Source of the DNA: Billgrantia tianxiuensis
GTDB taxonomy: Bacteria; Pseudomonadota; Gammaproteobacteria; Pseudomonadales; Halomonadaceae
Length of the DNA: 64,000 bases
Direction of reading: 5' to 3'
Assembly: GCF_009834345.1 (NCBI RefSeq)
Contig: NZ_CP035042.1
Coordinates: 124,001-188,000 of the forward strand
Shown here: piece after piece, positions 7,544-44,008 of the stretch
How the letters are laid out: every line of letters begins with the position of its first letter
How positions within the stretch are numbered: position 1 is the first letter of the stretch
Position numbers and translations under genes: made by a program
Notes under the pieces: generated by a model
Databases searched by the model: none
Seen by the model: only the letters and a program-made list of their open reading frames with translations
Told to the model about the DNA's origin: nothing

Positions 7544-7584
7544 TGTAGCTAATTTCCTACACGGTTTGTAAGACATTGCCGATA
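7544..7584 (+). promoter_or_regulatory. Pair of GacA/UvrY-like boxes upstream of the T6SS cluster
   Basis: Box 1 at 7544-7561 is TGTAGC-TAATTT-CCTACA. It keeps the TGTAG/CTACA arms and the central AT of the GacA/UvrY consensus TGTAAG-N2-AT-N2-CTTACA. Box 2 at 7567-7584 has a perfect left arm TGTAAG and centre AT but a poor right arm CCGATA. The boxes are offset by 23 bp, the same offset as the pair before the small RNA at 43776-43945, and the surrounding bases (CCTACACG, TTGTAAG, CATT) also match. A possible promoter TTGCCG-N16-TATGCT follows at 7576-7603. Binding by a GacA orthologue is inference. Confidence 0.55.
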
Positions 7585-28461: not shown

Positions 28462-30549
28462 ATGGCCAACCAGACCGGACTTCAGTTCACCCTTGCGCTC
28501 GCCGGGGCCGAAACGGCCGAGCTGGCGGTGATCGACTTCACCCTGGAGGAGGCGCTTTCCGCGCCCTTCACCCTCACGCTGCGCTTCGCCAGCCGCGATG
28601 GCAGCCTCTCCGCCACCGAGCTGCTCGACCGCCCGGTGAGCCTGACCATCTGGCAGGACGGCGAGGCGCTGCGCCGGGTACACGCCATCGTCACCGAGTT
28701 CGGCCGTGGCGATCGCGGCCACCGCCGCACGATCTACTCGCTGGTCGCCCGCCCCGCGCTGTGGCGCCTTGGCCTGCGCCACAACTCGCGCATCTTCCAG
28801 GAGGTCTCGCCGCTCACGGTCATCAATACCCTGTGCGACGAGCTCGGCCTCACCGACGTGGCCTTCGCCGTCACCCGCGAGCTGCAGCAAAGAGAGTTCC
28901 TGGTGGAGTACCGGGAAACCGATCTCGCCTTCGTCGAGCGTCTGGCCGCCGAGGAGGGGCTGTTCTACTTTCATGAATTCGAAGATGCGCCGAACGGCGC
29001 TCACCGCCTGGTGTTCGCCGACGCGCCCCAGGTGCTGGCCCACCTGGGCGAGCGTACCTACCACGGTCGCGCCGGCGGCACCCCGCCGAGCCGCCACGTG
29101 CGCAAGCTCGAGCAGCTCGCCCGGGTCGCCCCGGCCTCTGTCACGCTCAAGGACTACTCGTTCAAGAACCCGGCCTACGCGCAGCTCCACGAGCAGGTGG
29201 AAAATGAACTCGAGGCCCATGGTCAGCGAGAGGACTACGAGCATTTCGATTATCCCGGGCGCTACAAGGCCGACGCCTCCGGCCAGGCCTTCACCCGCAT
29301 TCGCCTCGAACACCTGAGAAACGACGCCCTGACCTGCGCCGCCGAGAGCGACCTGCCCGAGCTCGCCCCGGGGGTCAAGTTCACCCTCACCGACCACGAC
29401 CTCAGTGAACTCAACCGCGACTGGCAGGTAGTGAAGGTCAAGCACACCGGCAGCCAGCCCCAGGCCCTGGAAGAAGACGGTGTCACGCAGAGTGATGCGG
29501 CCGGCATGGGCCTGCGGGGGCGGGCAGGCTCGGAAGCCGTGACCAAGTTCGACAACGAACTGATCCTCACCCCCGCCGACCGCGCCTGGCGCCCCACGCC
29601 CAACCCCAAGCCCCGTGTCGACGGCCCGCAGATCGCCTTCGTCGTCGGCCCCGAGGGCGAAGAGATCCACTGCGACGAGCACGGCCGGGTCAAGGTGCAG
29701 TTCCCCTGGGATCGCTACGCCGAGCCTGACGAAACCGCCAGCGCCTGGGTGCGCGTCAGTCAGGGCTGGGCCGGCGGCGGCTACGGCAGCATGGCAATTC
29801 CGCGGATTGGGCATGAGGTGGTGATTTCGTTCCTCGAGGGCGATCCCGACCAGCCGCTGATCACCGGGCGCACCTACCACGCGGTGAATACACCGCCCTA
29901 CGCGCTGCCCGAGCATAAGACGCGCACCGTCATCCGCACCCAGAGTCACAAAGGCGAAGGATTTAACGAACTTCGCTTCGAGGACCAGGCCGGCGAAGAG
30001 CAGATCTGGCTCCACGCCCAGAAGGACCTGGAGTTGCTGACCCACAACGACCGCACCGAAGAGATCGGCCACGACAGCTTCCTCACCGTGCACCACGACC
30101 GCGTCGGCGAGATCTACGCCGACGATCACCTGACGGTACACGGCAGCCGCCACACCCAGATCGACGGCGACGATCACCTGATCGTCGACGCCAGCCGTCA
30201 CGAGAAATACGGCCGCGCCCAGCTCGTCGAGGCCGGCCAGGAGATCCACCACAAGGCGGGCATGAAGGTGGTGATCGAAGCCGGCGCCGAGATCACCCTC
30301 AAGGCCGGAGGCAGCTTCGTCAAGCTCGACCCCAGCGGCGTCACCATCGTCGGCAGTCAGGTCAAGATCAACTCCGGAGGCAGCCCCGGCTCCGGTTCCG
30401 GCCAGGCCGCCCAGGCACCGGCGCTGCCGCGGGAGGCGGAAGCGGCGCCCCAGGCCCCGCGCATTGAGCCGCCGCGGCAAGAAGCAGCGCTACGTCAGGA
30501 GATGGCACTGACGCAGCCCTGTAAGCCGCTCGCTGATAGTCAAGGATAA
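28462..30549 (+). CDS. vgrG: T6SS spike protein VgrG (TssI)
   Basis: A 695-residue spike protein. The N-terminal gp27-like region (FTLEEALSAPFTLTLRFASRDG; SRIFQEVSPLTVINTLCDELGL; EFLVEYRETDLAFVERLAAEEGLFYFHEF) is followed by the gp5-like OB fold (HCDEHGRVKVQFPWDRYAEPDETASAWVRVSQGWAGGGYGSMAIPRIGHEVVISFLEGDPDQPLITGRTYH) and the repetitive beta-helix (EIGHDSFLTVHHD, DDHLTVHGSRHTQIDGDDHL). The last 70 residues are a Gly/Ser/Pro/Ala-rich tail that probably contacts the downstream DUF4123 adaptor. No enzymatic extension is seen. The order PAAR-VgrG-DUF4123-effector is the classic delivery module. Confidence 0.96.
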   Translation: MANQTGLQFTLALAGAETAELAVIDFTLEEALSAPFTLTLRFASRDGSLSATELLDRPVSLTIWQDGEALRRVHAIVTEFGRGDRGHRRTIYSLVARPALWRLGLRHNSRIFQEVSPLTVINTLCDELGLTDVAFAVTRELQQREFLVEYRETDLAFVERLAAEEGLFYFHEFEDAPNGAHRLVFADAPQVLAHLGERTYHGRAGGTPPSRHVRKLEQLARVAPASVTLKDYSFKNPAYAQLHEQVENELEAHGQREDYEHFDYPGRYKADASGQAFTRIRLEHLRNDALTCAAESDLPELAPGVKFTLTDHDLSELNRDWQVVKVKHTGSQPQALEEDGVTQSDAAGMGLRGRAGSEAVTKFDNELILTPADRAWRPTPNPKPRVDGPQIAFVVGPEGEEIHCDEHGRVKVQFPWDRYAEPDETASAWVRVSQGWAGGGYGSMAIPRIGHEVVISFLEGDPDQPLITGRTYHAVNTPPYALPEHKTRTVIRTQSHKGEGFNELRFEDQAGEEQIWLHAQKDLELLTHNDRTEEIGHDSFLTVHHDRVGEIYADDHLTVHGSRHTQIDGDDHLIVDASRHEKYGRAQLVEAGQEIHHKAGMKVVIEAGAEITLKAGGSFVKLDPSGVTIVGSQVKINSGGSPGSGSGQAAQAPALPREAEAAPQAPRIEPPRQEAALRQEMALTQPCKPLADSQG

Positions 30550-30551
30550 AC

Positions 30552-31454
30552 ATGGTCATGGCTGCACTTCCCATCGGTGTACCACCGATGAATGCTGACA
30601 TTGCAGAGGGGAAATACTACCTGCTGCTTGATGGCATAAAGCTTGAACCCTTGGAGCGGTGGCTTTATGAGCGTCTCGACGATCCAGTGTATGAACTGAT
30701 CTATCTGGATACGCCTTTGGCCGAATGTCGCCGGATATCGCCTTGCCTGGTGAGGCTCGATAAAGGCATCCCCGTATGGGAGGCGTTTATCGAGAATGGT
30801 GTAAAGGACGGCTGGGGTTGGCTGATGGCGAGTGCTGCACCGCAGGAAGATGTGGTAGCGCATTTGCGCTGGCTGCTGTTTGTCGAGCATCCACTGACGG
30901 GCGAGCAAATACTGCGTGTGGCCTCTCCAGAAGTCATGAAATGTTTGCTCGAAGCTGAGCCACAACCGGCAGCGAGTGCCTTGCTAGGGGAACTCGATGC
31001 GCTGTGGTTGCCCACCCATGAGGATGGCGAAGTCGCCTGGTGGTACCTTGTCAATGCTCGCCAGGGGCCTGTGCCACGCGATGCCCGCTTTGTTCTGCAA
31101 CAGGCCCATCTCGATTCGCTGAGTCGTATTGCGTGGCAACGCTTTGCCGAGGAGCTTGCTCGACACTTACAGACGTTCTTCGTCAACGGCCCGCTACTGA
31201 GTCAATACGGTACTGCGATAACCGCGGCCAAGCAGGTGATTGCCGCCACGCAGGAACTGAGCTTTTCCGGTCGGCGTGCCCATTACTACATGGCCAATGT
31301 TCTGGGCGCTCACGGGCATGATGCCTTGGATGAACAGACCATGCCCACCGTGGCGAAGCTTTTGACTCAGCCCGATGGTCGGCCACCGATGGAACGGCTC
31401 AAGATCGCCGCTGCAGAGGCGCAGCGATTGGCGCACAGGAGAAAGCATGCATGA
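30552..31454 (+). CDS. DUF4123-type T6SS effector adaptor (Tap/TEC-like)
   Basis: A 300-residue protein starting 2 bp after vgrG. The first 140 residues match the DUF4123 adaptor pattern: YYLLLDGIKLEPLERWLYERLDDPVYELIYLDTPLAECRRISPCLVRL, then WGWLMASAAPQEDVVAHLRWLLFVEHPLTGEQILRVASPEVM. DUF4123 proteins load a cognate effector onto VgrG and are not secreted. The remaining C-terminal half is helical. Overlap of its end with the effector start (4 bases) supports pairing with the VasX-like protein. Codon use is less GC-rich than in the core genes, as common for effector modules. Confidence 0.85.
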   Translation: MVMAALPIGVPPMNADIAEGKYYLLLDGIKLEPLERWLYERLDDPVYELIYLDTPLAECRRISPCLVRLDKGIPVWEAFIENGVKDGWGWLMASAAPQEDVVAHLRWLLFVEHPLTGEQILRVASPEVMKCLLEAEPQPAASALLGELDALWLPTHEDGEVAWWYLVNARQGPVPRDARFVLQQAHLDSLSRIAWQRFAEELARHLQTFFVNGPLLSQYGTAITAAKQVIAATQELSFSGRRAHYYMANVLGAHGHDALDEQTMPTVAKLLTQPDGRPPMERLKIAAAEAQRLAHRRKHA

Positions 31455-34400
31455 ATACTGATACGGACGCCGCACAGCGGGTAGCTGACAACCAGAGGGA
31501 CAACGACCCGGGACAGGAAATCGGTCAGTGTCCCCTGCAAAAAACCGACCTTCAGCTGATACCTGTGCGCTATGCCTTGGTGGAACCCGAGCAAGCCGTC
31601 ACCCTCCCGGGGTTTTCGCCTCCCATCTGTGGTGACTTTCGTCCCAATGGCATCCGGCCCGTCAGGAATGGGTGGCTTTACCTGATCCATAGCCTCGCCC
31701 CCGACGAATTACAGACTTTTCAGATGGCGCCGGACGGCAGCGGTGATCCAATCATTCTGGAACGTCGTGGCAGTATCAAGGTGCTATTTAGCCAAGTGGA
31801 GCTGGAGGAAAAACGAGCCGCTCTGCTGTTGGCCAAGCCAGACGTTCAAGACGAGGTGATGCTCACGGTCAACATCGGCGCTTACTGCCCGGGTAACGGA
31901 ACATCACACCTTTTGCCTCCCGAGGAGCTGGGCGATGTGCTGGCAGATGAGCAAGGTGAGCGGGTGCCTTCCGCTGAGCGCCTGGATTATGGCCAATACC
32001 AGTGGACTGCCAGTGCGGAATGGCAAGCGGCGAGGGCGGGAGCCATTACGGGGCATATCCAAGCCGAGTATCGGCAGGACAGTGCCTGTCTGATCGTCGA
32101 AGATGTCGTGGCGCGTGCCAACGATCTGGTCGGAGCCTGGACGGAAATCGTCCGCCAGGAAACCGCGTGGATGGATGAAGAACCGGAAAAGCACTTCGCC
32201 GCCCGGGCCATTCAGGGCTTCATGCAACTCGATCTGCAACCCATGATTGCGCATGCTGGCAAGGGCGAGATCCCTGAATGGCTGGGCAATGCAAGTGAGG
32301 CAGACGAGGCGCAACTCCGGGATCTAATGGAGCTGCAGAACCAGTTTGATGCCAAGCGCTCGGAGGATCTGGCCAGCAGTGGCGGGCATCCCGGTTTTCG
32401 GTCTCGCGAACAGCAGGCACTGGAAGCGGAAGTCCGTCGCGTGAGCGGCGATCTCGCCGGGCGCCTGGGTACGGACGCCAAATCCGTACGCGATTTTGCC
32501 CGTGAGACCCATGACGACTATTTCGAACGTGTCTACGGCAGCCAGGAGGGCGATCGCTGGCTCGCCCAGCAAGGCATCGAAGATGTTATCCGTCTCGACG
32601 AGATGCGCGCGTTTCTCTCCGACGCGGATGCATGGCAGGGAGAGTGGCGTGCCCACAAAGAACAGGTCGGCGAGGACATCAAGACCCTGCTGCCGCGCTG
32701 GCACGAATACGCCAGCCTCCTCGATGGCGAGGACGATACACAGGCCATCCTGCGCAGCAGTCTTGAGCATCGGCTGTTCACGACCCTGGAGGTCTGCGGC
32801 CAGCAGGACTTCCTCGTGCAGCACTATTTCGAAGAGATCACGGTAGCGCATCGCCTGCACGTAACTCCACTCTGGGAGTTCATCAACACCGCGGCGTCGG
32901 ACTGGAAGAGTGCTCAGGGCTCACTGATGGCACTGATGTCGGCGGAGGCGACGCCAGGTACACATGCCGAATGGCAGGAGCGCTTCAATCAGCAGGACCA
33001 GCTTCGCCTGCAGAATCTCGAAGGGTTGGGCGAGGAAGCTCGGGCCGCCGTCGTGACGGAATTGACAGCCAAGGAGGGCGTCCTGGGGCGCACCGCGCTG
33101 GCAAGCCTGCTGGACGAGACTGAAGTGCTGGATTTCGAGCAGCGTTTCGCCGCCCTGTTCGAGCGCACCTCCAACGGGGTACGCCACGAATTGTTTACGC
33201 GCTTCTCGACGTACCAACTAGGCTGGGATATCCCAGAACAAGCCATCCTCGACCGTATTAACCGCCTGTTGACTCGTGCCGAACGGCTGGCTGACGACAT
33301 GGAGAGGCTGAGCCGCTATGAGCAGGCCGTCGAACGCCAACGCAAGCAGTTACCTGACTACGATAAGCGGATTCGCGAGGCACGTGCGGCGTTGCGTCCG
33401 CAAAGAGATGCCCTGACGGAAGTGCTCGATGAGCTCGCCGAGGCCACCTATCCCCTCGGTGAACAGGGCAGCCATGCCCTCAAGGTGGCAGGGCTCGGTG
33501 AGCAGGCTTCCCGGGTGGCGCTGAACGAGCGGCGTCTGGTCAAGCAAGCGTTACAGGATGAGCGCGCCTGGGACGCCTTGCTGCGGAATGAGCGAGGTGA
33601 GATTGCTCCCGGCCGCGCCGTGCCGGTGGGGCTCGGCGGCTTGATGTTGCTGCTCAACGGCTGGCTGTTTGGCGGCGCCATTCAGCAATTGGGCACGGCG
33701 TTGCGCACGAAAGAACACGGAGGGGAAGCATTTGCGAACTTTCTGTCCGGTGCCGCCGGGACGCTCGCCGCTACGGCCGCTGTATTGGAGATCCTCCACG
33801 ATACCCGCTACCGTCGCCTCTACGAGGGGCGCACCTTCAAGAGCGCCGTTCAGCAGGCGGCCGGCAGCCTGGATCACCTGGACGACTGGGCGCGTCTGAC
33901 CAATCGCGCCATGACCTGGGTAGCGGGTGCCTCTTTTGGAGCGGCAGCCTTCGATATGATCCGCCAAGGTCTCAAACTAGAACGCGCAAATAGTGACCGT
34001 CAGCGTCTGGCGGCCGGCATCGCCTTGGCGGGAGACGCGGCGATTGTTGGCGGCACCTTGCCGATCGCTATCGCAGGATTGTTGGGAAAGTTCAAGGGCA
34101 CCTCCGCCGTCTTGTTGCGGCTGCACCTGCTGCGCCTGGCAGCGTCGCTCAACTGGGTCGCCGCCGTCGGCGTGGCTCTGGTGGTGCTGGGCGAATTGCT
34201 CTACGAGTACTACTCGCTCTCGCCGCTGCAGCAGTGGTGCCAGAAAAGTGTCTGGGGCGAAGATCCCGAAGGCTGGAGCTTTCAAGAGCACCAGCAGCAA
34301 CTGGCGGCGCTGCATGGCCGGCCGGTACTCTGGCGTCGCGGCCACCAGCCCGAACGCCGCAGTGCCATGCCCGTGGGGCCGCAGATGCCCGCCAGTTCCT

Positions 34401-34780
34401 TGAACCTGCGCCTCAACCTCCCGGGAGTCACATCGCCCGGCCCGGACAACCTCAGGGTCGGGCTCTGGGGCGTATCGCATGCCGGTCAACAAGCATTGCA
34501 CGATGATCTGTTCGCCCATGCCGGTATCACTCTGGAGGAAGGCAACTCCCGGCTGGACTATGCCCTCGACCCCGAGCGGGTCGGTGACTGGCATACCCTG
34601 ATGCTGGTGGTGCGTATCACTTCCCAAGGGGCCTCGTCGCCGACCGCCACCACTAGCTTCAAGGTATTCAGCCGCCTCGATGGCCTCGCGCCCAAGGAGG
34701 ACTGGGCGCCAATCGAACCCTTGGTGGGACGCGAGGCCAGCGCCTGGCAGGCTATGACCCTCGAGCCCTGGCCTGCTTGA
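31451..34780 (+). CDS. VasX-like membrane-active T6SS effector
   Basis: A 1109-residue protein. The N-terminus (CPLQKTDLQLIPVRYALVE, GIRPVRNGWLYLIHS) matches the VasX N-terminal/BTH_I2691-type effector domain that is recognised by DUF4123 adaptors. The middle (about 250-700) is long, helical and charged. From about residue 725 there are five hydrophobic segments, near 725-748, 757-780, 820-841, 850-880 and 894-921, a colicin-like arrangement suited to inserting into a target inner membrane. A soluble tail of about 180 residues follows. V. cholerae VasX permeabilises prey membranes; the same activity here is inferred from architecture. Confidence 0.75.
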   Translation: MNTDTDAAQRVADNQRDNDPGQEIGQCPLQKTDLQLIPVRYALVEPEQAVTLPGFSPPICGDFRPNGIRPVRNGWLYLIHSLAPDELQTFQMAPDGSGDPIILERRGSIKVLFSQVELEEKRAALLLAKPDVQDEVMLTVNIGAYCPGNGTSHLLPPEELGDVLADEQGERVPSAERLDYGQYQWTASAEWQAARAGAITGHIQAEYRQDSACLIVEDVVARANDLVGAWTEIVRQETAWMDEEPEKHFAARAIQGFMQLDLQPMIAHAGKGEIPEWLGNASEADEAQLRDLMELQNQFDAKRSEDLASSGGHPGFRSREQQALEAEVRRVSGDLAGRLGTDAKSVRDFARETHDDYFERVYGSQEGDRWLAQQGIEDVIRLDEMRAFLSDADAWQGEWRAHKEQVGEDIKTLLPRWHEYASLLDGEDDTQAILRSSLEHRLFTTLEVCGQQDFLVQHYFEEITVAHRLHVTPLWEFINTAASDWKSAQGSLMALMSAEATPGTHAEWQERFNQQDQLRLQNLEGLGEEARAAVVTELTAKEGVLGRTALASLLDETEVLDFEQRFAALFERTSNGVRHELFTRFSTYQLGWDIPEQAILDRINRLLTRAERLADDMERLSRYEQAVERQRKQLPDYDKRIREARAALRPQRDALTEVLDELAEATYPLGEQGSHALKVAGLGEQASRVALNERRLVKQALQDERAWDALLRNERGEIAPGRAVPVGLGGLMLLLNGWLFGGAIQQLGTALRTKEHGGEAFANFLSGAAGTLAATAAVLEILHDTRYRRLYEGRTFKSAVQQAAGSLDHLDDWARLTNRAMTWVAGASFGAAAFDMIRQGLKLERANSDRQRLAAGIALAGDAAIVGGTLPIAIAGLLGKFKGTSAVLLRLHLLRLAASLNWVAAVGVALVVLGELLYEYYSLSPLQQWCQKSVWGEDPEGWSFQEHQQQLAALHGRPVLWRRGHQPERRSAMPVGPQMPASSLNLRLNLPGVTSPGPDNLRVGLWGVSHAGQQALHDDLFAHAGITLEEGNSRLDYALDPERVGDWHTLMLVVRITSQGASSPTATTSFKVFSRLDGLAPKEDWAPIEPLVGREASAWQAMTLEPWPA

Positions 34781-34825
34781 TAGAATTGGCACCAACACGG
34801 GTTACCACGGAATGAAGGAAGGTCC

Positions 34826-36171
34826 ATGACCACCACAGCCAAGGAACAGGGAGCGCCCGCCATGGCGCTGCGCGCTGGCGAGCATCTGACACGCGGCCCC
34901 AACGAGCTCTATAGTCTGAGCCCCCGACCCGTCCCCCTGGGGCCCACGGCGGGCGGCGGGGCAGATATTGGCCGGCTGGTCCATCGCCGCGACGAGGCGA
35001 CGCTGGACCTGCTGCATAACGTCAGTCGTAACGGCATGCTGGCCTGGGGGGGGCGGCAGTTGGGATGGTGCTGTTTTTTATTTTTGTCTGGGCCTCAGCT
35101 GTCTTTATGGTCTTTTATGGCGGCTTTACCTGGGGGATGCGCTGGGTATCTGGGGGGGGGGGCTATGCGATGCTCTTGTTTTTTGGCGCCTTGCTCATTA
35201 TTCCCGATCTCTGGCTTCGCGGTACCGCCCCGGTACGCTTTCACCGCCAGCGCCGCGAGGTGGCCTTCGTGGTGGAACGCCCTGGGCGGAAGGTCTTTCT
35301 GCCGGCCCCCAGCGCGCACCTGATGTACGGCTTCTGGTTTGCCCTGTTTTCCATGAGTGGCATGTTCACGCTGGTCAGTCTCGGTGGACGCGGAGGCGAG
35401 ATGCATATGTTAGATCGCCAGGGCATTGCGCTGATGGCGACTGTTCACCTGATCATCTCCCCCGCCCTGGCCATCGGTTATGTCCTCTTCTACCGCTGGG
35501 TGCGGCGCCTGGCCGGCTGGCGCAAGGAGACCGTCTTCGTTCCCTGGGAAGACGTGGTGGCGGTGGCGACCCGAAACATGGCCGTCACCGTCGGTGGGCC
35601 GGCGGGGCTGGGCTGGGAACTGCACATCCTGCCGCCGGACCCCGAGCGGCCGGGCTATAGCCTGGCCGGTGCCGGTGTCTCGGCCGGCATGACCGGCTTG
35701 CAGATGGCGATGATGCAATGGGAGCTGATCCGTCGCTACATGGAAGAGGGCCCCGAGGCGACACCCGAACGCGCCGACGACTATAGCGTGGCCTGGTACA
35801 AGGAAGAGATGGCCCGGCAACGGAAGCGCCATGAGCGGGAGGGCAAGCCGTTCTGGCGCTACCGCCTCAAGTGCTGGATGGAACTGGCCTACTTCGCCAG
35901 CTGGTACACCGAGTACCGCGCCAAGCATGTGCTGCCCAAGGCCAGCCCCAAGGGCTGGTTACAGGAGTGGTCCCAACCGCTTCCCGAATCCCAATGGGCC
36001 AGGCCCTCGGCGGCACTCACCGAACTGACCCGTCAGGTAGAGGCCGCCTACGAGCGTGGCGAGACTTTCCTCGATCTCGGGCCGGTTGAGGAACGCTTCG
36101 GGCACCCAAGTGCCGGCGAGACGCCGAAGGCAGCCTATCCCAGCGTGCCCTTTGCCGCCCACTCAGGCTGA
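34826..36171 (+). CDS. Polytopic membrane protein, candidate immunity protein of the effector (apparent -1 frameshift)
   Basis: The first 75 residues (MTTTAKEQGAPAMALRAG to LHNVSRNGMLAWGG) and the rest (from about 35054: AAVGMVLFFIFVWASAVFMVFYGG onward) are in different frames separated by a run of eight Gs at 35046-35053; nine Gs would restore one protein of about 448 residues. It has about four transmembrane segments: residues 75-100, about 113-128, about 170-190 and about 200-220. A cytosolic part begins ETVFVPWEDVVAVATRNMAVTVGG and resembles DUF6708-type proteins, though I hold that loosely. Position directly after a pore-forming effector fits an immunity role. A second run of eleven Gs lies at 35152-35162. 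Confidence 0.55.
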
Positions 36172-37156: not shown

Positions 37157-37322
37157 CAAAAAGCCCGGCCTTGCGGCCGGGCTGGATCTTCGCTTCCTTA
37201 CATCCTCCTCGGGCATCCTTCCACCCCGAGCATCCTTGGATATCGAGTCTTCCTGACTCGGTCGTCCCTGGCTGAGCCTCCGTGCCCAGTACGCCTTCAC
37301 TTTGCCAACTCGAAGTGCCCTC
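37157..37322 (-). ncRNA. CsrB/RsmZ-type regulatory small RNA, copy 1
   Basis: On the minus strand this stretch has nine GGA triplets, several in AGGGA/AAGGA/AGGAAG contexts, and ends in an intrinsic terminator (AGCCCGGCC-GCAA-GGCCGGGCT, then five Ts). It shares long identical blocks with the copy at 43776-43945 (CACGGAGGCTCAGCCAGGGA, CAGGAAGACTC, AGGATGTAAGGAAGCGAAG). Variation sits in stem pairs. This is the architecture of CsrB/RsmY/RsmZ RNAs, which sequester CsrA/RsmA. No protein frame is conserved between the copies. The 5' end is estimated. Unlike copy 2, no GacA box is visible upstream; instead the end of the acyltransferase gene lies about 90 bp upstream on the same strand. Confidence 0.75.
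37158..37183 (-). terminator. Intrinsic terminator of small RNA copy 1
   Basis: A perfect 9-bp GC-rich stem (AGCCCGGCC with GGCCGGGCT) around a four-base loop, followed on the minus strand by five Ts. It may also stop the convergent 36502 transcript. Confidence 0.85.
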
Positions 37323-37323
37323 G

Positions 37324-37341
37324 GCCTTAACCTGTAGCAAG
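37324..37341. repeat. 18-bp direct repeat, left copy
   Basis: GCCTTAACCTGTAGCAAG occurs here and again, identical, at 42125-42142, bracketing the acyltransferase/KAS III/HDO cassette. A diverged form (GCGTTAACCTGCGGCAAG) sits at the equivalent place upstream of small RNA copy 2 (43944-43961). So the sequence is part of the small RNA promoter region, and the right copy looks like a duplicated or recombined half. Confidence 0.6.
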
Positions 37342-37414
37342 GAGAAGGTAGAAAATCGTCTTCCGAGTCGCCGGTAGCATCTTGCCCGTGTCGATTCGGC
37401 ATTTGTGGGGTTGG

Positions 37415-38772
37415 TCAGGCGTGGCGCTGTGTCGCACCTCCCGGCTGCGGATGGACGCGCAGCAGCCAGGAAGCGGCCGCGACGCCGGTCAGGCCGAAGA
37501 TGGCGCCGGGCAGGGCGCCGAGCGCCAGGCTGGCGACGATGCCGCCGAGCAGCGCCGCGCCGCCGGCGAAGATAGCCGGTGCGGCGGTGGCGGAAACCAC
37601 GTCGCGCTTGCGGCGCATCTCGAAGGTCACCACCGCGATCATCACGGGGGCGACGGCCACGATGCACAGCGCAATCCACCACAGGCGGCCGAGCCAGAAG
37701 CCCACCTCGCCCGGTATGCCGGCGTCGATGGGCAGGCCCAGGCGCTCGCCCAGCCAGGCGGCCGGCAGTTCGGCGAGCTTGTGCCAGAGGTAGAGCGGCA
37801 TGCCCAGGGCGCCGAGGATCGTCACCGTCCGGTCGATTCGGCGGCGCTCCAGCAGGCGGCGCACGGGGGCTTCGAAGGTCAGCGCGGCGCCTACCTGAAT
37901 CCACATCACGCCGACCAGCGCCAGGGTGGGCGGCAGCAGGTTGCTGGGCACGCCGAAGGCACCGTCGACCATGGCCACGGGGTAGCCGGAGGCCACGGCG
38001 GCGGCCAGCCACAGAAGCCCGAGCAGCAGCAGGGCGAGGCCGCAGCCCAGGCCCGAGAAGCGGCCGCGCTTCCAGGCGATGCCGAGCTGCTGCGGCAGCA
38101 GCCAGACCACCGCGGCGTTGAGCCAACCGATGCCGCCACCGTTGGCGGTGACGCGAGTGCCCAGCTCCAGCAGCTCGCCGGGAGTGCTAATGCCGGCGCG
38201 CAGCAGGTCCACGGCGGCGGCGATCAGCAGCAGCCCTGCCACGGCCTTGAGCCCCCAGCGGTTGTCGGCCCACACGCTCAGCGGCAGCAGGGCCTGCACG
38301 CCCAGCAGCATCATCAGGAACCAGAGGTGTACGGTGAGCGAGTGGTTGAGCGGGCCGAGCAGGCGTCCGCCGGTGTAGGCCGCCAGCAGGACGAAGGCCA
38401 CCAGCACCGCCAGGTAGGTGACGGTGGGGCGGGCCAGGCCCAGTGCCCGGCCCGCCCACCAGTGCAGCTGGCGCTGGCCCTGATCCAGCCGACGCTGGGC
38501 GCCGTCGGCGCTGACCGCGGCCGAGACGAAGATGAACAGCGGCACCACCTGCAGCAGCCAGGTGAGCACCCCGGCGCCGGTCCACACCAGCAGCAGATGA
38601 TCGGTGGTGGTCATCAGGCCGTTTTCCAGCCGTGGCAGGGTGGCGATCCAGTGGCCGAATACCACCACCAGCAGCGCGCCGGCACGCAGGGCATCGGGTA
38701 GCGATCCCGAGCTGGCTGCGGTGTGGCTGTGCTATCCGAAGCCGGGCCTCGCCTGTGGGTTGCTTGTTTCAT
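37415..38772 (-). CDS. Acyltransferase family 3 membrane protein (apparent -1 frameshift)
   Basis: A polytopic protein of about 452 residues when one base is restored near 38690-38700 (RYP joins DALRAGALLVVVFGHWIAT). Without it the longest frame is 417 residues starting at 38668. The segment ALLVVVFGHW with its histidine matches the catalytic N-terminal helix of acyltransferase-3/OafA-type enzymes (usually R..A...VVxxH), and about ten hydrophobic segments follow. Such enzymes move acetyl or longer acyl groups onto sugars, peptides or lipids at the inner membrane. It is divergent from the KAS III cassette and probably part of it. Read-through would enter small RNA copy 1. Confidence 0.7.
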
Positions 38773-38918
38773 GGTGTCTCGTTCCCATTCGATTTGGCGC
38801 TTGCAAATGGTATATGCCTGGTGGATATTAGTTATCGAACAGTGTTTCCTAACATCATCCATGAAACGTAAGCGCCTTGCAAGAACGCCGTGAGAGTCGC
38901 TGAACAGAGGAAATCGCC

Positions 38919-39487
38919 ATGGATACCCACACGCTGTTGGTCCATGTCCTGCTGTACGTTTTCCTGCCGCTATGGGAATTGCCGGCTTCGTCGACTGGTG
39001 CTGTCACCGTGCCACGCACATCGAGGAGACCTCGGGGCTGAAGGAGACCTTGATGCACTCGGCGATGGGTATTCAGGTGGGCATCCCCATCCTCATGTGC
39101 CTGCTCTACCGCATCAACGTGCTGGTGCTGCTGATCTGCCTGCTGGCCTGGGTACTGCACGAGGCAGTGGCTCACTGGGACGTGCACTACGCCGCTCCCC
39201 GGCGTCACATCAGCATCTGGGAGATGCACGCACACAGCTACCTGGCCAGCCTGCCGTTCTACATGCTGGCGATGATCATGGTGATCAACTGGCCGGTGGT
39301 GATCGACCTCGTCTCCCTCAACTGGGCCGGGCAGATGCGGCTGATTCCCGTCGAGGTGCCACACGGCGGCGAGCGCTACCTGCCCTACTACCTGACCTTC
39401 ATGGCACTGCTGTGCGTATTTCCCTATCTGGAGGAGAACCTGCGCTGCCTGCGGTATTACCTGAAGCACAGAGGAGAGCCGGCGTGA
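38919..39487 (+). CDS. Histidine-rich integral membrane protein of unknown function (apparent -1 frameshift)
   Basis: The ATG at 38919 (MDTHTLLVHVLLYVFLPLW, preceded by AGAGGAA) loses frame at the G run 38974-38976. With one G restored it continues GIAGFVDWCCHRATHIEETSGLKE to give about 190 residues. It has about four membrane segments and conserved-looking histidine clusters: WCCHRATHIE, WVLHEAVAHWDVHYA and HISIWEMHAHSY. Clusters like these coordinate di-iron in membrane fatty-acid hydroxylase and desaturase families, but spacing does not match a family I can name. Its end overlaps the KAS III start by 4 bp. Confidence 0.6.
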
Positions 39488-40583
39488 GCGTCTATATCAC
39501 CAGTACTGGCCACTACCTGCCTGGCGAGCCGGTGGACAACGAGCGGATCGAGGCGGTGCTCGGCCTGGTGCACGGCAAACCGAGCCGGCTCAAGCGCCGC
39601 ATCCTGCAGTCCAACGGCATATGCCAGCGCCATTACGCCATCGATGCCGAGCACAACACCCTGATCAGCAACGGCGAGATGGCCGCCCGGGCGGGCCGGG
39701 CCTGCCTCGACGACAGCTACCTGGACAAGTCGCGGCTCGAGATGCTCAGCGTGGCCACCAGCCAGGGCGACCTGGTGCTGCCGGGATTCGGCAGCATGGT
39801 CCAGGCCGAGCTGGGTGTGGCCGATGTCGAGCTGCACAGCAGTCACGGCATCTGCTCGAGCAGCATGATGGCGCTCAAGGCGGCCTACACCGGGCTCAAG
39901 GCCGGCGAGCACGACAATGCCCTGGTGATCGCCAGCGAGCTGGCCTCGCGGCTGTTCAAGGCCAGCCGCTACGAGGTGGTGGCGCAGGAGATCGACTTCA
40001 ATGCCGAGTTCCTGCGCTGGATGCTGTCGGACGGCGCCGGGGCGCTGCTGCTGGAAAACGAGCCGCGCCGGCGCTGCTTCCGCATCGACTGGATTCGCGG
40101 CTTCTCCCACGCCGACGCCTACCCGGTGTGCATGAGCGTCGGCCGCGCCGAAAGCGATGGGCGCAGCTGGCAGGACTTCGCCACCTACGCCGAGGCGGAG
40201 GCCGCCGGCGCCCTGCTGATCCGTCAGGACGTTCGCCTGCTCGACAACATCGTCAAGCTGGGGGGGACGGCCTGCTGCGGCTGATCGACGAGGGACGGGT
40301 CGAGGTAGGGCGGATCGACCACGTGCTGTGCCATTACTCGTCGCACTACTTTCGCGGCAAGATCTTCGACATGTTGATCCAGGCCGGCGCGGCCATCCCC
40401 GAGGAGAAGTGGTACACCAATCTCTATACCCGCGGTAACACCGGCTGCGCCTCGATGTTCATCATGCTCGACGAGTTCCGGCGCACCCAGAGTCATCGAG
40501 CCGGTGACACCATCCTGTGCATGGTGCCGGAGAGCGGTCGCTTCAATAACGTCTACATGCAGCTCACGGTCGTGGAGGAGTAA
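39484..40583 (+). CDS. Beta-ketoacyl-ACP synthase III-like enzyme (apparent -1 frameshift)
   Basis: A thiolase-fold enzyme of about 366 residues. The GTG at 39484 gives MSVYITSTGHYLPGEPVDNERIE, the typical KAS III start. The catalytic triad is visible: Cys124 in SSHGICSSSMMALKAAY, His in LCHYSSHYF, and Asn in YTRGNTGCASMF. Frame is lost in the G run at 40260-40266 (seven Gs, eight needed), between NIVKLGG and DGLLRLIDEG. It departs from housekeeping FabH in sequence and context, resembling secondary-metabolism KAS III enzymes that start chains or esterify acyl groups. The di-iron protein gene follows 2 bp later. Confidence 0.8.
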
Positions 40584-40585
40584 CC

Positions 40586-41269
40586 ATGGAAAGCAAGGTC
40601 ACCACCCAGTTGGGCCAGGAGTGCCTGCAAGGGTTGATGCGTGTGTGGTTCGACTTCGAGCGCCAGCTGGGGCGGGTGCCGATCATCCAGCGCCTGGAGC
40701 GCGGCAGGTTCACCCGCGAGGATTACCGCAACCTGCTGCTGCACCTGCGCCAGCAGGTGATCGAGGGCGCGCGTTGGATCACTCGCGGTGCCTCCAGCTT
40801 CGAGCGCGACTACGCCGACGTGCGCTCGGAAGTGATCGGTCACGCCAAGGAGGAGCATCGCGACTACGAGATGCTGGAGGCGGACTTCGTGGCGGCGGGC
40901 GGTGCGCTGGAGGAGATCCGCGCCGGCCGACGCAACGCCGGCAGCGAGGCGCTGCACGCCTTCATGATGTATCGCGCCAGCCAGCCCAACCCGGTGGATT
41001 TGATCGGCGCCATGTGGATCATCGAAGGGTTGGGGCAGAAGATGGCCAGCGACTGGGCGCGGCGGATCGACGAGGCCACCGGTGGCGATGGCCGCTACAC
41101 CTGCTTCATGCGCTACCACGGCGAGAACGACGACGCCCACCTGGACAAGCTCTACTCGCTGATCGACCGGGTCTGCCTCACGCCGGAAGACCAGAAGTCG
41201 ATCCTGCGTACCGCGCGGGTGGTGGCGCGGCTCTATGCCCTGCAACTGGAGGAGGTCGACCATGGCTGA
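40586..41269 (+). CDS. Heme-oxygenase-like di-iron oxygenase (HDO) family protein
   Basis: A 227-residue all-helical protein of the TenA/CADD/UndA fold. Candidate metal ligands include the helix VIGHAKEEHRDYEML near residue 90, the glutamate in MWIIEGLGQKM near 150, and H178-x3-D182-x2-H185 in RYHGENDDAH. The last matches the HxxxDxxH ligand spacing I know from CADD. HDO enzymes use two irons and oxygen to oxidise or cleave substrates; UndA converts fatty acids to terminal alkenes. Placement directly after a KAS III suggests an acyl substrate, which is inference. Its end overlaps the next gene by 8 bp. Confidence 0.75.
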   Translation: MESKVTTQLGQECLQGLMRVWFDFERQLGRVPIIQRLERGRFTREDYRNLLLHLRQQVIEGARWITRGASSFERDYADVRSEVIGHAKEEHRDYEMLEADFVAAGGALEEIRAGRRNAGSEALHAFMMYRASQPNPVDLIGAMWIIEGLGQKMASDWARRIDEATGGDGRYTCFMRYHGENDDAHLDKLYSLIDRVCLTPEDQKSILRTARVVARLYALQLEEVDHG

Positions 41270-42125
41270 CAGCAGGCGAAGGCCCCGCAGCCCCTTTCTT
41301 CGTGCGCTGGAATTCGACGATTCGCTGCCCATCCAGCCCGAGGCGGTGCGGCTGTGGCTGAACGACATCGAGAGCCCGACGCGCTGGTCGCTGCGCCCGC
41401 TGCTGCAGTTCCTGCTGGCGATGCTGCTGCATCTGATCTGGTTCGTGAAGCGCCTGCCGCTGCCACAGTTTCGCGCTCACGGCCTGCTGCAGCGGTTGAT
41501 CTGCTGGTTCTGCACCCACTTCGTCAGCCCTAGCGCCAATCAATTGATCCTGCGTCACTTCGCCACCGAGTCCAACATCCTCAACTTCCTCATCGACAAC
41601 TGCCCGGAGGTCTCGGTGGAGCCGCTCACGCTCTATCCGAGCCGCATTGAGGACATGCTCGACGCCAGCTTCGTCAAGCACGATCAGGAGCTGTTCCGGG
41701 CGATCGAGGAGATGGGCCTCTGGCGGCAGCGCCCGGCCCCCCTGGCGCCGCAGGCGATCAGTTGGGCGCATTGGCGTCCGTTGGCAGAGAGCGACTTCGA
41801 GCTGCCGCGCAGGCGCACCCAGGTGCTCGATTTCGAGAGCGCCCATGCGCTGTTCATGTGCCTGTTCTGCCTGCTGCTGACCCGCGAGGAGTACCGCGAC
41901 GCGATCAATGGCTTCAACCTCGACCAGTCCATCGCCATCCGCGTCGGCCAGTTGATCGGCGACCCGACCCTGGCCGAGATGGCCTACAACAAGTACCCGC
42001 ACTACCTGGTCGGGCCGTGGAACCTGAGCCAGCGCTTCCTGATGCACGGCTTCTTCACCGAGTACCTCTACGCCCGGCTGGAGCGGCTCAGGCTGGCGTC
42101 GGTGGCAAGCAAGCCGCGCCCCTAG
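41262..42125 (+). CDS. Conserved hypothetical protein of the KAS III/HDO cassette
   Basis: A 287-residue protein that I cannot assign. The start ATG 41262 (MADSRRRPRSPF) overlaps the HDO gene. It has one hydrophobic segment (LLQFLLAMLLHLIWFVK, about 45-62) and otherwise looks soluble, with possible metal or acid residues in LILRHFATESNILNFL and a conserved-looking NKYPHYLVGPWNLSQRFLMHGFFTEYLY. The pattern of H-F-x-x-E-x-x-I and later H-G-F-F-x-E suggests a helical metal-binding fold, tentatively. The stop codon abuts the right 18-bp repeat. Confidence 0.6.
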   Translation: MADSRRRPRSPFLRALEFDDSLPIQPEAVRLWLNDIESPTRWSLRPLLQFLLAMLLHLIWFVKRLPLPQFRAHGLLQRLICWFCTHFVSPSANQLILRHFATESNILNFLIDNCPEVSVEPLTLYPSRIEDMLDASFVKHDQELFRAIEEMGLWRQRPAPLAPQAISWAHWRPLAESDFELPRRRTQVLDFESAHALFMCLFCLLLTREEYRDAINGFNLDQSIAIRVGQLIGDPTLAEMAYNKYPHYLVGPWNLSQRFLMHGFFTEYLYARLERLRLASVASKPRP

Positions 42126-42142
42126 CCTTAACCTGTAGCAAG
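42125..42142. repeat. 18-bp direct repeat, right copy
   Basis: Identical to 37324-37341. It begins on the last base of the preceding stop codon and lies 24 bp from the end of the thioredoxin-like gene. It would be the right boundary of a 4.8-kb cassette. No integrase or transposase gene is inside. Confidence 0.6.
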
Positions 42143-42165
42143 TCAGGTGCAATATCTTGGGCGCT

Positions 42166-42714
42166 TCATTTCCACTTGATGTTGCAGCCCATGGAAGGCA
42201 TCTGCTTGGCATCCGGTGCCTGATCGGCCAGTACCGCATCCGCGGCGGCACGCAGGTCCTTGCCGGTTACCGGTGTCTCCTTGCTGGGGCGGCTGTCGTC
42301 GAATTGGCCGCGGTAGGCCAGTCGATGGTTCCGGTCGTAGAGAAAGAAGTCCGGCGTGCAGGCGGCCTGGAAGGCGCGGGCCACTTCCTGGGATTCGTCC
42401 ACTAGATAGGGAAAGGAGTAACCGCGTGCCTGGGCTTCTTCGACCATGCGCTCGGGGCGGTCGTCCGGGTGCGCTTTAAAGTCGTTGCTGTTGATGGCCA
42501 CCACCGCCAGGCCCCGGTCTCCGTACTCGCGAGCGAAATCGGCGAAGGCATCGGCGATGTGTTTCACGAAGGGGCAGTGATTGCAGATGAAGACCACCAG
42601 CAGGGGCATATCATGGAACTGCTTGCTGTCGACTTCCACGCCGTGTGGGTCGGGCAAGCGGAATGCCGGCAAGGGACTGCCCAGTTCCATCATGTTCGAA
42701 GGCGTCAGTGACAT
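42166..42714 (-). CDS. Thioredoxin-like redoxin family protein
   Basis: A 182-residue protein with an AhpC/TSA-redoxin fold: MELGSPLPAFRLPDPHGVEVD at the start and the active-site motif VVFICNHCPFVKHIADAF, where CNHC is the CxxC pair. Later AVVAINSNDFKAHPDDRPERM and FPYLVDESQEVARAFQAACTPDFFLYD (cis-proline region) are typical of the family often annotated as thioredoxin family protein or thiol-disulfide isomerase. No signal peptide is present, so it acts in the cytosol as a thiol oxidoreductase or peroxiredoxin-like protein. The dienelactone hydrolase gene lies 35 bp upstream on the same strand. Confidence 0.85.
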   Translation of the reverse strand: MSLTPSNMMELGSPLPAFRLPDPHGVEVDSKQFHDMPLLVVFICNHCPFVKHIADAFADFAREYGDRGLAVVAINSNDFKAHPDDRPERMVEEAQARGYSFPYLVDESQEVARAFQAACTPDFFLYDRNHRLAYRGQFDDSRPSKETPVTGKDLRAAADAVLADQAPDAKQMPSMGCNIKWK

Positions 42715-42749
42715 GGATGCGAAGCCTCCCGTTCATTGATGCCGAGAGT

Positions 42750-43610
42750 TCATTGGTTGAGGGTTCTGTCCAACAACAGCAGCGCTGCCTGCCAGGAGGA
42801 GGCGTCGGCGGCGGCGTTGTAGCCGAGGGGCAGGCCGAATTCCTCGGCCAGCGCGCCGGCACCGGGATTCGTGAAGCCATGGAGGGCCTGGGGATAAGTG
42901 ATGACATCGACGTCGGCCCCCTGTGCCTCGAGCGCACGCGCCATGGCCGATAGGTCGCCACGTTCGACGAGCGAATCCGCGCCACCGTTGTGGATCTGCA
43001 CGGCACCGTTGAATCCCCCGCGTGCGGAGGCCGCCTGGATGGGGGCGCCGTGAAAGCTGATGACGGCCTCGAGCGGCATGCCGGACAATGCCATGTTCAT
43101 GATCACGCTGCCGCCAAAGCAGTAGCCGAGGGCCGCCATGCCGGTATCCGCCACGGCAGGATGCTGGCGCAGCTGGGACATTGCCGCTTCGAAGCGGGCG
43201 CGTGCGGCTGGCCAATCCTGCATGACCTGTGAGGAGAACTCGCCCGCTTGATCGGGGTGCGTGGCGACCTGGCCGTCGCCGTACATGTCCACGGCCAATG
43301 CAACGAAGCCCAGCGCGGCGAGCTGGTCGGCACGTGCGCGGGCATAACTGTCGAGCCCCCACCACTCGTGCACCACCAGGACGGCCGGCCGGGGCCTATT
43401 GTCGTTGACGTTGCGCGCCAGGTATCCCTGATAGGTTTGGCCACCGGTCGAATACTCGAACGTCTCGCCTTCGACGCGAGGCCCCCACGAGGTGATGCGT
43501 TCCGGCTCGGACTCAGGGTCAGCCCCTGTCGGTAGGCTGCCTTCCTGGGCCATGGCCGAGCCTGTCATCAACCCTGCGATCAGGCACAAGAGCATGAATA
43601 ATGGGCGCAT
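42750..43610 (-). CDS. Secreted dienelactone hydrolase family protein
   Basis: A 286-residue alpha/beta hydrolase. The start at 43610 (MRPLFMLLCLIAGLMTGSAMAQ) is chosen because AGGAGAG lies seven bases before it and it exposes a clear signal peptide; a longer in-frame start at 43670 is open. The nucleophile elbow is GYCFGGSVIMNM (Cys, as in dienelactone hydrolase), the acid is probably in HNGGADSLVERGD, and the histidine is in PQALHGFTNPG. The early HEWWGLDSYARARADQLAALG is also family-typical. Periplasmic hydrolases of this group act on lactones or esters; the natural substrate is unknown. Confidence 0.85.
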   Translation of the reverse strand: MRPLFMLLCLIAGLMTGSAMAQEGSLPTGADPESEPERITSWGPRVEGETFEYSTGGQTYQGYLARNVNDNRPRPAVLVVHEWWGLDSYARARADQLAALGFVALAVDMYGDGQVATHPDQAGEFSSQVMQDWPAARARFEAAMSQLRQHPAVADTGMAALGYCFGGSVIMNMALSGMPLEAVISFHGAPIQAASARGGFNGAVQIHNGGADSLVERGDLSAMARALEAQGADVDVITYPQALHGFTNPGAGALAEEFGLPLGYNAAADASSWQAALLLLDRTLNQ

Positions 43611-43775
43611 GCGAAGCTCTCCTTGCTCGTTTTTCTTGGTCAGGTCTAGGAGACAGAGGGCGTGAGTCACCCTTTATTAACATAGCTGCCCTCGGAAGCC
43701 CGCGTATACTGCCCTGGCCTGAATCCTTCGGGTTGGGCTGGTGTATCTGCCGCTAACGCCGTGGCGGCGGCCCAA

Positions 43776-43945
43776 CGAAAAGCCCGGCCTTGCGGCCGGG
43801 CTGGATCTTCGCTTCCTTACATCCTCCTCGAGCCTCCCTACCGCTCGAGCATCCCTGGATAGCTGAGTCTTCCTGACTCGTCGTCCCTGGCTGAGCCTCC
43901 GTGCTCAGGTACAGTGCCACTTTGCCAACCGAATGCTTGGTTGGC
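43776..43945 (-). ncRNA. CsrB/RsmZ-type regulatory small RNA, copy 2
   Basis: The minus strand carries eight GGA triplets, in the same order and spacing as copy 1, including CACGGAGGCTCAGCCAGGGA, CAGGAAGACTC and AGGATGTAAGGAAGCGAAG, and the same terminator hairpin. A 5' stem CCAACC-N8-GGTTGG lies near the start. Two GacA/UvrY-type boxes lie just upstream (43968-44008). By analogy with RsmY, RsmZ and CsrB, it should titrate a CsrA/RsmA protein when the Gac system is active. The 5' end is estimated. Confidence 0.8.
43777..43802 (-). terminator. Intrinsic terminator of small RNA copy 2
   Basis: AGCCCGGCC and GGCCGGGCT pair around a four-base loop, followed on the minus strand by four Ts. It is identical in the stem to the copy 1 terminator. 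Confidence 0.85.
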
Positions 43946-43967
43946 GTTAACCTGCGGCAAGAATTCA

Positions 43968-44008
43968 TGTAGGAAATTGCCTACACGCCTTGTAAGTCAT
44001 TTCTTACT
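43968..44008 (-). promoter_or_regulatory. Tandem GacA/UvrY boxes upstream of small RNA copy 2
   Basis: TGTAGG-AAATTG-CCTACA at 43968-43985 is a perfect inverted repeat. TGTAAG-TCATTT-CTTACT at 43991-44008 differs from the consensus TGTAAG-N6-CTTACA at one base. Both keep the central AT. The offset is 23 bp, about two helical turns, putting both on one face of the DNA. This is the known activation site type for GacA/UvrY-controlled small RNAs. The regulator is not in the window. Confidence 0.75.

Follow-up and report, generated by a model that had tools for sequence, protein, structure and literature searches.

Predicted CsrA-sequestering small RNAs of Billgrantia tianxiuensis and their multiplied relatives in the Halomonadaceae

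CsrA is sequestered in Enterobacteria by CsrB and CsrC, and in Vibrio tasmaniensis by CsrB1-4, RNAs with many GGA hairpins and with sibling copies that arose by duplication (PMC6262261). RsmX, RsmY and RsmZ of Pseudomonas are short RNAs with GGAs repeated in loops, an intrinsic terminator, a Gac box, published as TGTAAG-N6-CTTACA (PMC4950607, PMC11837529), and several copies per genome. Two such RNAs are known in E. coli, three in V. cholerae, four in V. tasmaniensis and four in P. aeruginosa (PMC11882849); the largest published number found in these sources is seven, in P. syringae (PMC7911923). Here we describe two RNAs, A and B, predicted on the minus strand of a 64,000-nucleotide stretch (the window, G000:C1:124001-188000) of the 5.0-Mb genome of the halophile Billgrantia tianxiuensis. 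We conclude that A and B are in all likelihood CsrA-sequestering small RNAs (sRNAs), with B predicted to be under Gac control, and that they belong to a family missing from Rfam that has at least seven copies in this genome.

How does this pair compare with the described systems? All the likenesses to RsmX, RsmY and RsmZ listed above apply, with differences: A and B fall below the Rfam gathering scores, the predicted transcripts measure ~170 nt against 107-119 nt for RsmX (PMC7911923), A has no box, and B and a further copy, E, have two boxes each, 23 nt apart. Up to 18 model matches per genome occur in the bacterial family, against up to seven copies in P. syringae. Compared with CsrB the RNAs are shorter (a 133-position core model against one of 356 positions), and A and B hold 8-9 GGAs against 22 and 14 in E. 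coli CsrB and CsrC (PMC11882849).

Hairpins and copies of the RNAs

The earlier note had proposed two CsrB/RsmZ-type RNAs with shared blocks, a shared terminator, nine and eight GGA triplets and no conserved reading frame. Both stretches lie where it placed them. They are 85% identical in the RNA part, with long identical blocks (a whole-genome search with A returns B at E 1.5e-49), and have in common the terminator AGCCCGGCCGCAAGGCCGGGCT, followed by a T-rich tail. The element CAGGTTAA directly 5' of the RNA is kept in 12 of 13 aligned A/B/C-type copies and is one base off in the thirteenth. The triplet counts are borne out, making A and B the two most GGA-rich 165-nt stretches on the minus strand of the window (mean 1.8); on the plus strand two 165-nt stretches likewise hold nine. 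Mechanically called open reading frames (ORFs) run across A, but single-base indels among 11 aligned copies break any frame, so none is conserved in these sRNAs. Both RNAs thus have an intrinsic terminator and no conserved reading frame, two marks of their functional class.

Do the GGA triplets lie in the loops of maintained hairpins? Two covariance models were built, R1 from 11 A/B/C-type cores and the broader R2 from 45 copies (A-E and G included, I not). Across 45 aligned copies 91.4% of pair cells hold standard pairs. In 235 pair cells both partners have changed, where shuffles give 62 ± 7 and sliding gives at most 41; these figures call for caution, since the alignment had been fitted to the model structure. 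An alignment-free count places 172 of 503 GGAs (34%) in hairpin loops, compared with 6.6% after mononucleotide shuffling (73 distinct cores without their last 35 nt; stems of at least four Watson-Crick pairs). The 73 are what is left of 81 model hits once six duplicates from overlapping loci and one 22-nt fragment are removed and one identical core is merged. Triplets that overlap are placed alike (AGG and CAG 32%, GAT 31%); GAG, GAA, AAG and ACG reach 17-21%, and GCC, GGC and AGC 1-8%. In 52 of 71 copies the first hairpin retains its GGA loop, the 5' arm taking 32 different forms, and 339 of 525 GGAs stand in an ANGGA context. At the level of the family, GGA motifs lie in loops that are kept by compensatory change. 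Such triplets would mimic the sites of CsrA on mRNA; each RNA would bind several CsrA dimers, and CsrA-repressed mRNAs would be freed.

How many copies does the genome hold? A DNA search with A finds four places, blastn against the loci added a fifth, and seven R2 matches reach E 2e-9 or better (A-E, G and I; table 1). A scores 159 bits with R1 and 131 with R2, and B 148 and 122, both being training sequences of both models. Two further candidates, F and H, are weak. H has 14 GGAs, lies between eno and fdxA-mutS and was found through its Gac-box site; fdxA is presumably a neighbour of rsmZ in Pseudomonas as well. The genome thus holds seven clear copies and two weak candidates, in part in tandem clusters (D-F-G-I and E-C), and the pair that the earlier note had seen exists as part of a dispersed family. 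Summed over the nine RNAs, whose ends were set by eye, loop GGAs number 22 against ~5.9 expected. The mutS gene near H (L169:7422-10072) is split over two reading frames, which correspond to consecutive parts of a single profile, from assembly indels or true frameshifts.

Table 1. Predicted features of A and B (positions in the window) and further copies (positions in the genome).
Feature	Position	Strand	Basis or remark
sRNA A, predicted transcript	37158..37326	minus	5' end inferred from conserved CAGGTTAA; ~170 nt
sRNA B, predicted transcript	43777..43946	minus	5' end inferred from conserved CAGGTTAA; ~170 nt
-10-like element of A, CAGGTTAA	37327..37334	minus	alignment of copies
-10-like element of B, CAGGTTAA	43947..43954	minus	alignment of copies
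Intrinsic terminator of A	37162..37183	minus	terminator search
Intrinsic terminator of B	43781..43802	minus	terminator search
Hairpin CUGAGC-ACGGAG-GCUCAG of B	43891..43908	minus	CsrA-site-like, ANGGA in loop; stem covaries (45 aligned copies, helix 1)
Possible Gac-box remnant upstream of A, GGAAGACGATTTTCTACC	37347..37364	minus	7/12 positions, manual count
Gac box 2 of B, TGTAGGCAATTTCCTACA	43968..43985	minus	12/12 to TGTARG-N6-CYTACA
Gac box 1 of B, AGTAAGAAATGACTTACA	43991..44008	minus	11/12
Copy C	1737921		R2 match
Copy D	1619726		R2 match
Copy E	1737324		R2 match
Copy G	1620466		R2 match
Copy I	1620782		R2 match
Candidate F	1620136		weak R2 match, 23.9 bits, E 0.024

Gac boxes and the contrast between A and B

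What might switch these RNAs on? The upstream promoter region lies outside the covariance models and hence was not seen by them. B is preceded by two palindromes, AGTAAGAAATGACTTACA and then TGTAGGCAATTTCCTACA, that match the published Gac box; the first palindrome takes the form TTGTAAG-N6-CTTACAA in many relatives, where a second, weaker one comes after it. Of the 73 distinct hits, 37, among them B, have a box of at least 10/12 positions upstream; of 142 control windows 2 do. These counts are not independent events, as the hits come from related genomes, and a few of the hits are likely false. All 37 boxes begin 71-77 or 91-98 nt before the core start. Three weak opposite-strand hits (L103 1604 -, L119 1418 +, L125 1406 +) look like chance and were retained among the 73, which lowers the box fraction. 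In the window's genome B, C, D, E and G have such a box (five of nine candidates).

The same genome encodes one CsrA, the partner that a sponge requires of its host, and one GacA/UvrY-family regulator above the curated cut-off (285.7 bits against 280). B therefore has what marks Gac-controlled Rsm sRNAs, a Gac box upstream and GacA in the genome, and the response regulator GacA is predicted to bind its two palindromic boxes and would switch it on through them. Because GGA-loop hairpins with covarying stems, Gac boxes, one CsrA and one GacA occur together, we conclude that the family very probably works as CsrA sponges; for A and B themselves, transcription and the binding of CsrA and GacA are predictions from sequence.

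A is the odd one out. In the 200 nt searched upstream its best Gac-box site reaches 7/12, and the upstream region shares only 44-56% identity with the corresponding regions of the 12 other aligned copies. A sigma-70-like promoter was found neither for A nor for B. Is B then a working sponge, and A a decaying duplicate without a promoter? The missing box, the diverged upstream region and the missing promoter would all fit; we regard this as possible, though on balance doubtful. The nearest relative of A, a copy in B. lactosivorans (small tree, support 0.845) that is 89% identical in the RNA part, is likewise without boxes, yet it keeps the CTTGCTACAGGTTAA element. Moreover, RsmW of P. aeruginosa is a working precedent, with a weak Gac site ~830 bp away and co-transcription with the preceding gene, PA4570, that is supported by experiment (PMC4950607). 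Like RsmW, A has no near Gac box and follows a gene on its own strand (37415-38668); a search of the minus strand between that gene and A found no terminator-like site. The co-transcription of A, unlike that of RsmW, is surmised from this arrangement. A may be Gac-independent or decayed. It would be driven otherwise than B or be decaying, and our preferred guess is read-through from gene 37415-38668, as for RsmW.

The relatedness of the hits, noted above, is one of several points that weigh against reading the family as CsrA sponges. The GGA number, which we discarded as proof, shows no significant excess over dinucleotide shuffles in A (9 against 7.5, p 0.31) or in B (8 against 5.8, p 0.12) taken singly. 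Nor is there a significant excess of loop GGAs in A (p 0.23); in B there is (p 0.013). F is a weak match (table 1). H is absent from the R2 genome search, reaches 17.7 bits with R1 and 23.2 with R2 in a search of its locus, and has its sole box site 222 nt before the core. A, F and I have no Gac box of at least 10/12 upstream. Finally, none of the copies scanned reaches the gathering score of an Rfam sRNA family.

The checks that the earlier note had suggested bear on the same question. In the minimum-energy folds 2 of 9 GGAs in A and 3 of 8 in B fall in hairpin loops. The window has no gathering-level match to CsrB (RF00018), RsmY (RF00195) or PrrB_RsmZ (RF00166); the RsmY model, whose gathering score is 57, gives A and B 15.4 and 16.3 bits. 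Rfam was therefore set aside as proof, as nothing scanned gave a gathering-level sRNA match. Below threshold, copy C matches RsmZ (28.6 bits against a gathering score of 44, E 0.001), and copies in genomes G122 and G123 match models of the same Rfam clan (CsrB at E 1e-5, RsmY at E 0.003-0.004). Of the claim that A and B are CsrB/RsmZ-type RNAs that sequester CsrA/RsmA, the function holds up, on the hairpins, the Gac boxes and the presence of CsrA and GacA; membership in those Rfam families does not. The RNAs form an undescribed family that is not in Rfam 15.

Could A and B be base-pairing (Hfq-type) sRNAs or 3' untranslated region remnants, rich in GGA for other reasons? The GGA number of either RNA, no higher than in dinucleotide shuffles, would allow it. 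We think it improbable, since stems that covary around constant GGA loops, Gac boxes set at fixed distances and one CsrA with one GacA point specifically to sponges. A repeat element (mobile or REP-like) in place of RNA genes is most improbable: the copies are dispersed, vary in arrangement between species and flank variable gene blocks, and ORFs adjoining them in G122 and G126 include integrase-core domains (2/56) and a resolvase domain (1/56), but in sequence the copies have drifted apart (identity to C is 66% for A and 63% for B) and yet keep CAGGTTAA, the hairpins and the terminator.

Spread, csrA genes and neighbourhood

R2 matches 79 of 151 family genomes at E 0.001 or better. There are no matches in 72 genomes, 1-4 in 61 and 5-18 in 18, the highest counts being 18 (G122), 15 (G126), 13 (G114), 11 (G123) and 10 (G136). 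With R1, too, G122 gives 18 matches; two pairs of these overlap, which leaves 16 distinct places. Of 24 genomes in the genus that the window comes from, R2 matches 10 and gives nothing in the other 14. Among 244 genomes of the order ten match at 1e-5, seven of the same family and three of one other genus (41-43 bits); the copies in these three give weak Rfam RsmZ hits (30-32 bits, E 0.0008-0.002). The RNA family has multiplied unusually in some relatives, and the surprise lies in this copy number and in the pairing with csrA there, not in A and B themselves. Salinicola is an unlikely identity for g20, the genus richest in copies: among 11 genomes of 8 genera, a Salinicola locus fits G003 of genus g4 best (80-87% identity over three pieces) and the four g20 genomes less closely (74-81%). 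Beside one G123 copy lies a guanidine-II riboswitch (L191:3362-3412, 41 bits against a gathering score of 32).

Does the number of sponges follow the number of csrA genes? It correlates with it in Pseudomonas (Moll et al., as reported in PMC7911923). Among the 151 family genomes, 142 encode one CsrA, eight two or three, and one none. At least eight sRNA matches are found in four of the eight genomes with extra csrA and in six of the 143 others (Fisher p 0.0006, relatedness ignored). In G122, G126 and G114 the extra csrA is divergent from an sRNA copy (L170, L171, L172), and in G122 and G126 two csrA genes stand in tandem beside it. Thus G122, G126, G114 and G023, in which both sRNAs and csrA are expanded, agree with matching to csrA, whereas G022, G028, G094 and G138, which have extra csrA and no model match, disagree. 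Seven clear sponges with one CsrA in the window's genome likewise argue against simple matching to csrA copies. Crp-like regulators make up 7 of the 56 ORFs flanking copies in G122 and G126 (L133, L143, L156 and L160 among these loci).

The earlier note had taken A and B for a tandem pair separated by insertion. Five genes lie between them, one a StlD/DarB-type ketosynthase, and an HlyIII gene, whose protein has its closest named neighbours in Billgrantia, adjoins B. This block (located with five queries, one of them out of frame and good for position only) lies between HlyIII and the sRNA in L009, L010, L015 and L016, and between the sRNA and a hydrolase in L006; its different placement across species implies that the neighbourhood has been reshuffled around the sRNAs. 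In B. lactosivorans (L008) two A/B-type copies 1.2 kb apart flank a dienelactone hydrolase gene, and in L012, L013 and L017 an A/B-type and a D-type copy stand in tandem with 129-176 nt between them. An insertion between A and B is likely, rather than proven, from these arrangements, and the pair belongs to the larger dispersed family. The ketosynthase gene (~40282) also continues in a second frame, the two frames matching consecutive stretches of one profile, which reflects assembly indels or true frameshifts. At lower coordinates in the window (28462-36171) VgrG, DUF4123, VasX_N and sub-threshold DUF6708 genes stand in a row, a type VI effector cassette; relatives of the DUF6708 gene lie downstream of the sRNAs in L006, L008, L013, L015 and L016.

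Gac-box-like sites are not confined to the sRNAs. As a sole detector of sRNAs the pattern was given up: the genome has 25 such sites, against 8 for the reversed pattern used as control. Six of the 25 precede B, C, E and H, and the remaining ones among the 16 inspected lie upstream of type VI secretion or other genes. In the window the palindrome TGTAGCTAATTTCCTACA (7544-7561, plus strand, one mismatch) lies 344 nt upstream of a TssB/VipA type VI gene (ORF from ~7906; PF05591, E 1.6e-53). Among L089, L091, L092 and L098 (sites at 1501-1518), three VgrG-type ORFs are preceded at 108-121 nt by a perfect site, and an ORF encoding a Tle1-like phospholipase domain is preceded at 51 nt by a site with one mismatch. 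To judge from these positions, type VI genes of this genome may be direct targets of GacA. L090 (G000:C1:2117077-2120094) was considered as a further sRNA and dropped: its perfect site sits between an ECF-type sigma gene and an ORF of the AvrE family, cut by the locus end, whose match to the start of the AvrE effector profile hints at a type III secretion locus in a halomonad.

Meaning for the Gac cascade of halomonads

Genetic work on GacS/GacA exists for Halomonas anticariensis (Tahrioui et al. 2013, as cited in PMC7366521); the citing source, a 2020 review, lists the sRNA of the pathway in a table as unknown and gives CsrA in brackets. The literature matches listed, from a coverage that leaves out most subscription journals, contain no CsrA-sponge RNA of Halomonas or the Halomonadaceae.

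Tentatively, and as something a little short of probable, we picture in the Halomonadaceae a fast-evolving sponge family (~16-18 in the richest genome) that forms regulator-plus-decoy modules in some lineages, with some copies, such as A, outside Gac control and with GacA acting directly on type VI genes too. If that is true, CsrA would be titrated in response to several independent inputs. R1 and R2 could serve as the starting point for a new Rfam family. The genome with about sixteen sponges would be a natural test of what sponge duplication is for, be it dosage, separate inputs or matching to csrA, and these RNAs are likely the missing link of the Halomonas Gac cascade.

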